The translations under genes and the position numbers were made by a program. Of a DNA stretch of 64,000 nt, positions 28,259 to 34,003 are shown one piece after another. The DNA is from Lysobacter enzymogenes (GTDB taxonomy: Bacteria; Pseudomonadota; Gammaproteobacteria; Xanthomonadales; Xanthomonadaceae). How positions within the stretch are numbered: the first letter of the stretch is position 1; each line of letters starts with the position of its first letter. Location: assembly GCF_017355525.1 (NCBI RefSeq), contig NZ_CP067395.1, positions 5,468,501 to 5,532,500 on the forward strand, written 5' to 3'. A model generated the notes under the pieces. The model was not told the origin of the DNA. It did not search any database and saw only the letters and a list, made by a program, of their open reading frames with translations.

Positions 28259-28756
28259 ATGAACGCGAACACCGCCTGCACCGATCCGCACCACCACGTC
28301 CACGACGGCGACGCCTTCGTGCACGAGGTCGAGCGGGCCTGCGAGCAGCGCGGGCTGCGGCTGACCCCGATCCGCGCCCACGCCTTGCGCCTGATCGCCG
28401 ACGCCGGCCGGCCGATGAAGGCCTACGACCTGCTCGACCAGATGAAGGCGACCCACGACGCCGCGGCGCCGCCGACGATCTACCGCGCGCTGGACTTCCT
28501 GCTCGAGCACGGCTTCATCCACAAGCTGGCCTCGATCAACGCCTTCGTCGGCTGCCACCACCCGGGCGGCGCCCAGCACGCGGTGCCGTTCCTGATCTGC
28601 GACAGCTGCCAGTCGGCGACCGAACTGGAAGACGAACGCATCGTCGACCTGCTCGAAGCCCGCGCCCGCGCGCTCGGCTTCGTGCCGCAGGCGCAGACGC
28701 TGGAAGTGCACGGCATGTGCGCCGATTGCGTCGAGGCCAAGGCCGCGAAGGCCTGA
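28259..28756 (+). CDS. zur: Zinc uptake regulator, Fur family
   Basis: 165 residues; GGGAG precedes the ATG. A winged-helix N-terminal domain (RGLRLTPIRAHALRLI, APPTIYRALDFLLEHG recognition helix) is followed by a dimerisation domain with Cys114/Cys117 (CDSC) and Cys154/Cys157 (CADC). The 3-37-3 Cys spacing and the sensor Cys99 fifteen residues before CDSC match E. coli Zur (88, 103, 106, 143, 146). It should repress zinc-import genes when zinc is sufficient. The His-rich N-terminus (DPHHHVHDGD) may bind metal. A good Zur box lies 4.4 kb away at 33138-33160. Confidence 0.93.
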   Translation: MNANTACTDPHHHVHDGDAFVHEVERACEQRGLRLTPIRAHALRLIADAGRPMKAYDLLDQMKATHDAAAPPTIYRALDFLLEHGFIHKLASINAFVGCHHPGGAQHAVPFLICDSCQSATELEDERIVDLLEARARALGFVPQAQTLEVHGMCADCVEAKAAKA

Positions 28757-31079: not shown

Positions 31080-33104
31080 TCAGAAGAACACCCGCACGCC
31101 GAAGTCCACGCCGCGGCCGGGCAGCACCACGGTGTCCTTGAGGAAGGAGGTGTGCACCCGCGCTTCCTGGTTGGTCAGGTTGTTGCCGTCCAGGAACAGC
31201 TCGTAGCCGAGGTTGCCGGCATCCCAGTGATAGGCCAGATGCGCATCGACCAGGGTGTAGCCGTCGGTCGGGGTTTCGTTGACCGCGACCTTGTCCTGCT
31301 TCATGTAGCGGGTCGCGCCGAGCGAGGCGCGCCAGCTGTCGGCGTCCCAGCGCAGCTCGCCGCCGAAACGGCCCGGCGCGATCCGCGGCAGGTTGCCGCC
31401 GCGGTCGAGCTTGGCGCGCACGGTGTCGCCGAACACGCGCACATCGAACTTGCCGGCGTCGCCGTCGAACAGATGGGCGATGGCCTCGCCCTCGAAGCCG
31501 GTGAACTTGGCGTCGGCCTGGCTCCACTGGCGCACCGGGCTGTCTTCCTCGACTTCGCCGGTGTCGACCAGATAGATGAAGCCGTCGAAGCGGGTCTGGT
31601 ACGCCGCGACCTTGGCCTCGAACTTGGCGCCGTGGTAATGCAGGCCGACTTCGAACTGGTCGGCGCGCTCCTTGCGCAGGTTCGCGTCGCCGATTTCGAA
31701 CGAAGCGGTGGCCGCGTGCAGGCCGTGGGCGAACAGTTCTTCCTCGACCGGCGCGCGTTCGGCGCGGTCGAGGTTGACGCTCAGGCGCCAGGCTTCGTTG
31801 AACTTCCACAGCAGGCCGGCCGACAGGCTGACCGGCGTGAAATCGCGCTTGTCGCCGCCGTCCGGCGTGAGCTTGACCTTGTCCACGCGCGCGCCGAGCT
31901 CGAGCTTCAACGCATCCCACTCGCGCTGTTCGGTCAGGAACAGGCCGCCGGCGCGGGTCTTGGTGCGCGGCACGAACGCTTCCTCGCCGATCGCCTGGAA
32001 GGTGCGGTCGTAGCCCTGCACGCCGAGCGCGCCGGTCCAGCCGGCCAGCGGCTTGTGGGTCAGTTCGAAGCGGCCTTCGGTGGCGTCGTTGAGGAAGCGC
32101 GTGCCGACTTCCTGGCCTTCGAATTCGGTGTGCTCGTAGTTGGTGTGGGCCAGGCTCGCGCGCAGGCCGCTGAACACGCCGAATTCCTGGTTGACGCCGC
32201 CCTTGAGCTCGAACCGGCTCTGCTTCATGTCGATGTGCACGGGCGGCTCGCCTTCGGCGGGATTGCCCGGCTCGCCCGGATTGCCGTACTTGTCCTCGTA
32301 GCGCGAGGCGGCGAAGCCGAGGAAGCCCAGGTCGCCGACCAGCGACGCGCCGAGCGCGCCGGTCTTGGTGTCGATGCCGCTGTTGCGCTGGCGGCCCAGC
32401 GGGGTGTTGTAGTCGTCCTTGTTGCGGTACACGCCGTCGGCGTGCAGCACCAGCGCGCCGTCGGCGCCCGAAGCGTCGACGCGGGCCATGCCGGTGACGC
32501 CGTTGTCGACGGTGCTGCGACGGACCTCGGCGCGGCCGGACACGGTTTCGTCGAGCGGCTTCTCGGCGATGCGGCCGTCGACCACGTTGACCACGCCGCC
32601 GATCGCGCCGCTGCCGTAGAGCAGGGTCGCCGGGCCCTTGAGCACTTCGATCTGGTCGGCCAGGAACGGCTCGATCGCGACGTTGTGGTCCTGGCTGACG
32701 GTGGACACGTCCTGGGTCGCCAGGCCGCCGCTCATGACCGCGACGCGCGCGCCCTCCAGGCCGCGGATGATCGGCCGGCCGACGCCGGCGCCGAAGTTGG
32801 AGCTCTGCACGCCGGGCAGCTTGCCGACGGTTTCGCCGAGGGTGCTGCCGCGCGCTTCGTCGAGCTTGGCGCCGGCCAGCACTTCGACCGGCTGGGCCAG
32901 GTCTTCGGCGCTGCTCTTGAGCGGATTGGCGGTCACGACCACCGCGTCCAGGCTGGTAGCCTTGACGTGGCGCGTGTCGCTGGGATTGGGATTGGTGGCC
33001 GCCGCGTCCTGGGCAACGGCCTGGCCGAACGGCAGGGCCAGGGACAAAGCGAGAGCGAGCGCACTGCGGCGGGCGAGCGGGGAGACCACGATGGGGTTGG
33101 ACAT
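31080..33104 (-). CDS. TonB-dependent receptor 2, ZnuD-like, Zur-controlled
   Basis: 674 residues. Signal peptide (ALALALSLALPFGQAVAQ), TonB-box-like LDAVVVTANPL, then a plug with the ZnuD-type layout: VGRPIIRGLEGARVAVMSGG, QDHNVAIEPFLADQIEVLKG, PATLLYGSGAIGGVVNVVDG. The barrel ends in aromatic residues (GVDFGVRVFF). The plug resembles Neisseria ZnuD and a Zur box covers its promoter, so zinc uptake across the outer membrane is the best inference. The large His/Asp loop of Neisseria ZnuD is short here (YGNPGEPGNPAEGEPPVHID). Divergent from a MerC-domain gene that shares the same control region. Confidence 0.9.
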   Translation of the reverse strand: MSNPIVVSPLARRSALALALSLALPFGQAVAQDAAATNPNPSDTRHVKATSLDAVVVTANPLKSSAEDLAQPVEVLAGAKLDEARGSTLGETVGKLPGVQSSNFGAGVGRPIIRGLEGARVAVMSGGLATQDVSTVSQDHNVAIEPFLADQIEVLKGPATLLYGSGAIGGVVNVVDGRIAEKPLDETVSGRAEVRRSTVDNGVTGMARVDASGADGALVLHADGVYRNKDDYNTPLGRQRNSGIDTKTGALGASLVGDLGFLGFAASRYEDKYGNPGEPGNPAEGEPPVHIDMKQSRFELKGGVNQEFGVFSGLRASLAHTNYEHTEFEGQEVGTRFLNDATEGRFELTHKPLAGWTGALGVQGYDRTFQAIGEEAFVPRTKTRAGGLFLTEQREWDALKLELGARVDKVKLTPDGGDKRDFTPVSLSAGLLWKFNEAWRLSVNLDRAERAPVEEELFAHGLHAATASFEIGDANLRKERADQFEVGLHYHGAKFEAKVAAYQTRFDGFIYLVDTGEVEEDSPVRQWSQADAKFTGFEGEAIAHLFDGDAGKFDVRVFGDTVRAKLDRGGNLPRIAPGRFGGELRWDADSWRASLGATRYMKQDKVAVNETPTDGYTLVDAHLAYHWDAGNLGYELFLDGNNLTNQEARVHTSFLKDTVVLPGRGVDFGVRVFF

Positions 33105-33137
33105 GAAAGAGCCGATTCTGAACTGGCGGGGGAGGTT

Positions 33138-33160
33138 GAAATGTTATAAAGTAACGCTAC
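33138..33160. promoter_or_regulatory. Zur box
   Basis: GAAATGTTATA followed by AAGTAACGCTAC. The left half is identical to the classical proteobacterial Zur consensus (GAAATGTTATA-N-TATAACATTTC); the right half is degenerate but keeps TAAC. It lies midway in the 90-nt gap between the divergent ZnuD-like receptor and MerC-domain genes and overlaps the receptor's -10 box. The zur gene itself is 4.4 kb away. Confidence 0.82.
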
Positions 33161-33171
33161 CTGATTGACAA
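33143..33171 (-). promoter_or_regulatory. Promoter of the ZnuD-like receptor
   Basis: On the minus strand: TTGTCA (33166-33171), exactly 17 nt, TATAAC (33143-33148). Leader about 30 nt to ATG 33104. The -10 is inside the Zur box, so bound Zur would block it. Confidence 0.75.
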
Positions 33172-33194
33172 CCATCCCATAAGTCATCCCCCTC

Positions 33195-33602
33195 ATGACG
33201 GCATTCCTTCGCGGCCTGCTCGACCGGATCGGCGCCCTCGGCTCGCTGGCCTGCGCGGTGCATTGCGCCGCCCTTCCGCTGTTGATCGCGGTGCTGCCCT
33301 CGCTGGGGCTGGCCGCCTGGTTCGGCGACAGCTTCGAGCTGGCGTTCGTGATCTTCGCCACCGCGCTGGGCTGCTTCAGCGTGATTTCGGGCTATCGCCG
33401 CCACCACGCGCTGCGCGCCCTGAGCCTGCTCGTGCCGGGCCTGGGCCTGCTCTGGGTCGGCGTGCTGTACGCGCCGCTGCACCATTCCCTGGTCCCGCAC
33501 GCGGTCGCGATGACCATCGGCGGGGCCCTGGTCGGGCTGGCGCATCTGACCAATCTGCGCCTCAACCACGGCCACATCCACGACGCCAGCTGCGCCCACT
33601 GA
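33195..33602 (+). CDS. MerC-domain inner-membrane protein
   Basis: 135 residues, four membrane helices. GSLACAVHCAALPLL in helix 1 has the paired-Cys pattern of MerC (CAVHC), and the C-terminus is metal-ligand-rich (NHGHIHDASCAH). MerC proteins of mercury operons import Hg, but there are no other mer genes here and the gene shares a Zur box with a ZnuD-like receptor. I therefore infer a role in zinc homeostasis, possibly passage of zinc across the inner membrane or storage/sensing. ATG 33195 has only a pyrimidine-rich stretch upstream. The plus-strand promoter is not clear. Confidence 0.85.
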   Translation: MTAFLRGLLDRIGALGSLACAVHCAALPLLIAVLPSLGLAAWFGDSFELAFVIFATALGCFSVISGYRRHHALRALSLLVPGLGLLWVGVLYAPLHHSLVPHAVAMTIGGALVGLAHLTNLRLNHGHIHDASCAH

Positions 33603-33817: not shown

Positions 33818-34003
33818 ATGGGTAAGGGCGACCGCAAGACCGCCAAGGGCAAGCGCTACAACTCCAGCTACGGCAACGCCCGCAAGGCCGTGACCAAGGC
33901 CACCGGCAGCGCCGCCGCGCCGGCCGCCAAGAAGACCGCCAAGTCCGCCGCCGCCAAGGCGCCGGCCAAGAAGGTCGTGGCGAAGAAGGCCGCCAAGGAG
34001 TAA
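33818..34003 (+). CDS. 30S ribosomal protein THX with a Lys/Ala-rich tail
   Basis: 61 residues; AGGAG 7 nt before ATG 33818. The first 23 residues (GKGDRKTAKGKRYNSSYGNA) match THX, the tiny 30S subunit protein first seen in Thermus, which is about 26 residues long there. The remaining 38 residues are an Ala/Lys repeat (PAAKKTAK, APAKKVVAKK) like the tails of bacterial histone-H1-like proteins such as AlgP. The tail should bind rRNA or DNA non-specifically. A strong terminator follows. The THX call is confident; what the tail does is unknown. Confidence 0.88.
   Translation: MGKGDRKTAKGKRYNSSYGNARKAVTKATGSAAAPAAKKTAKSAAAKAPAKKVVAKKAAKE

Follow-up and report, generated by a model that had tools for sequence, protein, structure and literature searches.

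In the mercury transporter MerC, an intramembrane C-x2-C pair has a role. A relative of this protein is encoded in a 64,000-nucleotide (nt) stretch of Lysobacter enzymogenes DNA (NZ_CP067395.1, positions 5,468,501 to 5,532,500; hereafter the window), where a merC-domain gene (merC) stands divergent from a gene for a ZnuD-like TonB-dependent receptor, with a Zur-like box in the gap between them. The best reading of this locus, which we consider probable, is a Zur-regulated zinc uptake pair spanning both membranes, the receptor serving the outer and MerC the inner one. According to PMC8911655, mercury MerC is an importer located in the inner membrane.

The window MerC resembles mercury MerC, represented by the NCBIfam models NF010318 and NF033784, in its family (PF03203), its size and the four long helices of its predicted model, and it has C24, G82, H70 and G109 in common with three mercury-type proteins. 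In contrast to their C-x2-C pair, it carries C-x2-H-C, and helix 1 contains no further Cys beyond C24; its C20, H23, H117 and N120 correspond to S, G, S and D in the three proteins (motif GC-x2-C), and a Zur-like box takes the place of mer operon neighbours. The receptor has ZnuD of Neisseria as the best of 26 NCBIfam models (NF038289) and as its closest solved chain (PDB 4rdr, 254.8 bits), and a predicted Zur control is a further likeness, whereas its model score of 421.4 bits lies below the cut-off of 950 and its pairing with MerC sets it apart. ZnuABC and the ZupT/ZIP importers act at the step proposed here for MerC, namely inner-membrane zinc entry under starvation, but belong to families unrelated to it. 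Passages of PMC2770081 treat COG0523, FolE2 and HisI paralogues as joint members of Zur regulons, and a zinc-type merC lies within such a gammaproteobacterial cluster at one locus, L178 (folE2, a PRA-CH paralogue, merC, a Zur-like gene, DUF1826, COG0523 and a second merC); MerC is not named in the 12 of 21 passages listed for that paper, and the string “mercur” does not occur.

The divergent pair and its Zur-like box

The features of the locus, in window coordinates, are:
31080–33104, minus strand: ZnuD-like TonB-dependent receptor, 674 amino acids (aa) (PF00593, PF07715; NCBIfam and solved-chain comparison)
33105–33194: intergenic gap of 90 nt from receptor to merC
33195–33602, plus strand: merC-domain gene of the zinc type, 135 aa, with C20-x2-H23-C24, H117, N120 and a His-rich tail (PF03203, alignments)
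28259–28756, plus strand: zur, Fur-family zinc regulator, 165 aa (best NCBIfam model Zur; solved chains)
33137–33160, no strand: Zur-like box in the receptor–merC gap (E. coli motif, palindromic consensus, conservation)
33143–33171, minus strand: possible receptor promoter TTGTCA-N17-TATAAC (by eye; −10 inside the box)

This arrangement of receptor, gap, merC and nearby zur had been described in an earlier reading of the DNA (the original prediction), and its coordinates were confirmed; the end of zur lies 4.3 kb from the receptor start. The regulator has Zur as its best NCBIfam model (NF008646, 143.3 bits, below the equivalog cut-off of 167), and its closest solved chains are 7dh7/7dh8 (236.2 bits), followed by 4mtd, a zinc uptake regulation protein (120.6). 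The MerC protein covers the whole PF03203 profile at 84.3 bits, over the gathering cut-off of 27.6; no NCBIfam family was matched at E 0.001, and it falls short of both mercury models, NF010318 (cut-off 170) and NF033784 (140).

The box was compared with two descriptions of Zur sites, a palindromic consensus of 22 scored positions and the motif of Escherichia coli (E. coli) with 18 fixed positions, which is printed in PMC6103462 and is not the host's own. The sequence GAAATGTTATAAAGTAACGCTAC at 33138–33160 has a left half that equals the palindromic consensus letter for letter, as the original prediction held, and agrees with it at 17/22 positions overall, compared with 13/22 for the next best plus-strand place in the 64 kb. 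Positions 33137–33156 agree with the E. coli motif at 16 of its 18 fixed positions and are the sole place in the window with three or fewer mismatches, found on both strands; shuffled windows held a mean of 0.13 such places, and 4 of 100 shuffles reached two matches. In the whole 5.95-Mb genome, a core pattern with at most one mismatch recovered the window box and one site where convergent open reading frame (ORF) ends meet. A looser core pattern found eight places, the same number as the control, and so adds nothing; of the seven other sites it gave, six fall inside mechanically called ORFs, the seventh (L144) lies outside those listed, and none was accepted as a Zur box. With two mismatches to the E. 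coli motif and retention in relatives, the window site has the form of a Zur-regulon box upstream of its gene.

The divergent receptor–merC pair, with a box between the two genes, was kept in all 18 related loci compared (MerC identity 57–96%), where the highest-scoring Zur-like site ahead of merC reaches 13–19 of 22 in each. The records holding L014 and L015 are titled Bacillus subtilis and Tolypothrix and carry a Xanthomonadaceae-type locus; these assemblies are probably contaminated. In a tool-drawn family sample of 40 genomes from 39 genera, including that of the window, PF03203 was found in every genome, each with at least one C-x2-H-C MerC. Beside the C-x2-H-C merC there was a divergent receptor in 33 of the 40, an adjacent zur in 2, an adjacent same-strand ABC-3 permease gene in 5, and any of these in 39; its box scored at least 13/22 in 37 genomes and at least 14/22 in 34. 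PF03203 was also detected in 102/121 genomes at the level of the order, 23/143 of the class and 33/200 of the phylum, these samples overlapping. Because conservation reaches far outside the window, the original prediction is supported on two points, regulation by Zur and a zinc function of MerC. Control of the unit by Zur, predicted through binding to the box, and a role of this MerC in zinc homeostasis are both well supported and, in our estimation, very probable.

The minus-strand promoter that the original prediction called clear fared less well. TTGTCA-N17-TATAAC is readable by eye at 33171–33143, whereas a promoter scan requiring T at the last −10 position reported none on either strand, so that no merC promoter was recognised either, and the −35 is kept, by eye, only in the nearest relatives L002–L005. 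Downstream of the box, a short conserved AAGTCAT element often reaches the merC ATG; the pattern [AG]A[AC]GTCAT is present in 33 of 73 upstream stretches and in 1 of 700 random stretches. The window counterpart (33181–33187) has T at the first place and lies outside the 33.

Two kinds of MerC and their association with the box

The 125 distinct MerC proteins comprise 115 with C-x2-H-C, 3 with C-x2-Q-C, 3 with GC-x2-C and 4 with neither motif. Across an alignment of 26 diverse C-x2-H-C and C-x2-Q-C members, C20, C24, G82 and H117 show no variation and H23 hardly any; the intramembrane C20-x2-H23-C24 together with H117 and N120 is the feature that separates the kind of the window MerC from mercury MerC. 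The three GC-x2-C proteins pass both NCBIfam mercury-MerC models, and two of their genes have a neighbour that scores best with the MerT model, in one case over the cut-off. The tree of 124 MerC proteins places the three as a clade with support 0.998, and the separation of the zinc type has a moderate support of 0.72 to 0.94, depending on rooting, for which reason the tree was not leaned on. The His-rich C-terminus stressed by the original prediction is genuine in the window protein, but the subfamily ranges from 0 to 6 H+C residues at this place, which rules out the tail as a defining feature and makes it the weaker part of that argument.

The box follows the motif. At a threshold of at least 15/18 positions of the E. 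coli motif and within 200 nt upstream of the domain, a box was found for 87 of 118 motif-bearing genes (C-x2-H-C or C-x2-Q-C), compared with 2 of 459 stretches drawn at random from the same loci and none of 29 motif-less MerC-domain genes (0/7 and 0/22), true mercury MerCs included; five of the 29 scored 14/18 (two of the 7 and three of the 22) and none 15. The palindromic consensus at 14/22 or better gave a box for 84/115 C-x2-H-C genes and 5/394 random stretches. Of the hits, 22/149 were omitted from the count as repeats of other loci, and loci from genome searches represent at most 30 matches each, mostly the best, and hence are not random samples. The 22 motif-less genes belong to loci missed by our own profile, for which only the matched stretch was read, some of them partial (fragments at L069, L075, L098 and L099, with L075 resembling the tail of a zinc-type protein); they were left out of the 125 proteins and of the 87/118 and are covered separately, and L165 and L167, second copies in genomes G467 and G456 beyond the reach of the profile, were also left out. 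One genome, G454, is a natural control for the association: it has a mercury-type merC followed by merA and without a box, and a separate zinc-type merC with a box of 14/22. Motif and box together mark off, within the MerC superfamily, a zinc-type branch that differs from the mercury transporters and recurs in the predicted Zur response.

The company of merC elsewhere includes other genes of this response. In another family of the order, zur, the box and merC stand in a row at L021, L024, L025 and L027, with no receptor in the stretch examined; in five family genomes merC is directly downstream of znuA and an ABC-3 permease gene; L183 holds a Zur-like gene, merC, ZrgA and an ABC system, and L184 merC with COG0523. 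At L158, L168, L169, L170 and L171, znuA and ABC-3 permease genes immediately precede merC, and a GTTACAATGTAAC palindrome with a low consensus score occurs upstream of merC in most of these five, though not at L158. A second, more divergent C-x2-H-C MerC, with no receptor seen nearby, was noted in some family genomes, at L044, L114, L119, L148, L150, L163, L164 and L166, with box scores of 19, 16, 9, 13, 17, 17, 16 and 12 of 22, respectively. Further PF03203 groups differ in their Cys motifs (CC, CPACW) and lack a strong Zur-like box (L064, L065, L066, L067, L073, L074, L090, L092, L096 and L097), so that more than two kinds of protein fall within the Pfam family.

A candidate inner-membrane zinc step

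Profile searches of the window's genome, at their sensitivity, gave no match to ABC-3 permeases, ZnuA, ZIP or NRAMP. The same searches were positive in the 14 control genomes 13 times for ABC-3, 11 for ZnuA, 8 for ZIP and 7 for NRAMP, and in E. coli every time. Among the 40 family genomes, ABC-3 was found in 7, ZnuA in 7, ZIP in 14 and NRAMP in 10 (eight over the cut-off), and 19 matched none of the four, yet all 40 carry a C-x2-H-C MerC. No MerA over the cut-off was found in the window's genome either (best 315.8 bits; cut-off 454.45), and merC is its only MerC-domain gene; the claim that mer genes are absent stands to this extent, merT, merP and merR not having been searched genome-wide.

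When zinc is plentiful, Zn-loaded Zur would sit on the 33137–33160 box and block the receptor promoter, and presumably also a merC promoter on the opposite strand; this repression is suggested by the position of the box, which covers the receptor −10. As zinc falls, Zur would leave the box and both genes would be expressed. The ZnuD-like receptor, energised by TonB, would then bring zinc itself, or a carrier of zinc, through the outer membrane, a step that follows from its family. At the inner membrane, the four-helix MerC would take up Zn2+ through the intramembrane C20-x2-H23-C24 and pass it to the cytoplasm; in the last helix, H117 and N120 may complete the metal site. His-rich tails, where present, may hold zinc in transit, and the membrane potential together with tight cytoplasmic zinc buffering could drive uptake. 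The import step is suggested by the importer role of mercury MerC, the four-helix model and a Cys/His set that suits zinc. Zinc import by MerC, with its direction, metal and topology, is in our view rather likely; the original prediction, which gave MerC this inner-membrane job, is supported as to Zur control and zinc role, and as to import it stands as the best reading. Zinc-type MerC is the leading candidate for the missing inner-membrane zinc step. Whether the whole C-x2-H-C branch may consist of unrecognised, widespread, single-component Zur-regulated zinc importers, standing in for ZnuABC/ZupT in much of the family and probably in other groups, and forming with ZnuD-like receptors a minimal two-protein route, is an evenly balanced question.

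Several observations weigh against this import reading. No box at the threshold was found for 31/118 motif-bearing genes, no energy source for MerC transport is evident, and a fold search with MerC gave no informative relative. The importer negative covers four families, Zrg, ZevAB and P-type ATPases not having been searched in the window's genome. Some genomes carry MerC plus known importers, so that MerC is not simply an importer replacement. In addition, the table for Xanthomonas campestris Zur in a review gives znuABC and two TonB receptors, without MerC.

The most serious alternative, which we regard as unlikely, is that MerC takes part in the zinc-starvation response without being an importer, as a membrane zinc chaperone, store or sensor, or as a helper of the receptor or of some other importer. 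Some merC loci do include a complete-looking znuA–permease or ZrgA–ABC set, some 135 aa in four helices is small for a transporter, and function does not follow from co-regulation; set against this are the 19 family genomes with MerC and none of the four importer families, and the description of the mercury relative as an importer. Cargo does not follow from co-regulation either, and according to a title cited in PMC6416403 a plant accumulates more cadmium when it expresses MerC, but transport of another divalent metal or a metal complex under zinc starvation is improbable beside neighbours such as zur, znuA–permease, ZrgA, COG0523 and folE2, which are zinc-starvation genes.

It is still less probable that the box serves the receptor only, with merC as a bystander. 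The −10 does lie inside the box on the receptor strand and the scan recognised no merC promoter, but boxes also stand upstream of merC genes with no receptor seen nearby, both the second copies at L044, L114, L150, L163 and L164 and the zur–box–merC loci. Export of zinc or another metal is very improbable: Zur is reported to be able to activate an exporter as well in X. campestris, through an unlike sequence, whereas the merC genes have a starvation-type repressor box and importer-type neighbours. An ordinary mercury transporter, which would fit the PF03203 match and database names such as “MerC domain-containing protein”, is hardly credible for a protein with a different motif and a Zur-like box that fails the two models passed by the mercury-type proteins, in a genome with no MerA over the cut-off.

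Consequences for annotation and a neighbouring gene

If zinc import by MerC is correct, many genes that now bear the names “MerC domain” or “MerC mercury resistance” would have to be reinterpreted as genes of zinc starvation, and inner-membrane zinc entry would be explained in bacteria that have a TonB zinc receptor and no ZnuABC, ZIP or NRAMP match. The distinction between C-x2-H-C and GC-x2-C would provide a simple sequence test of MerC kind; two protein searches with MerC returned 1256 and 1670 relatives. No paper linking MerC with Zur or zinc uptake was recognised among the matches listed in open-licence PMC text, and an earlier notice elsewhere is possible.

In the window, merC is flanked by the receptor on one side and by a Thx/S31e-like gene on the other. 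This short basic gene (33818–34003, plus strand), which starts with MGKGDRKTAKGKRYN, matches the Pfam S31e and Thx ribosomal models, both below cut-off, and is found downstream of merC in 18 of 19 loci (the window and L001–L018).
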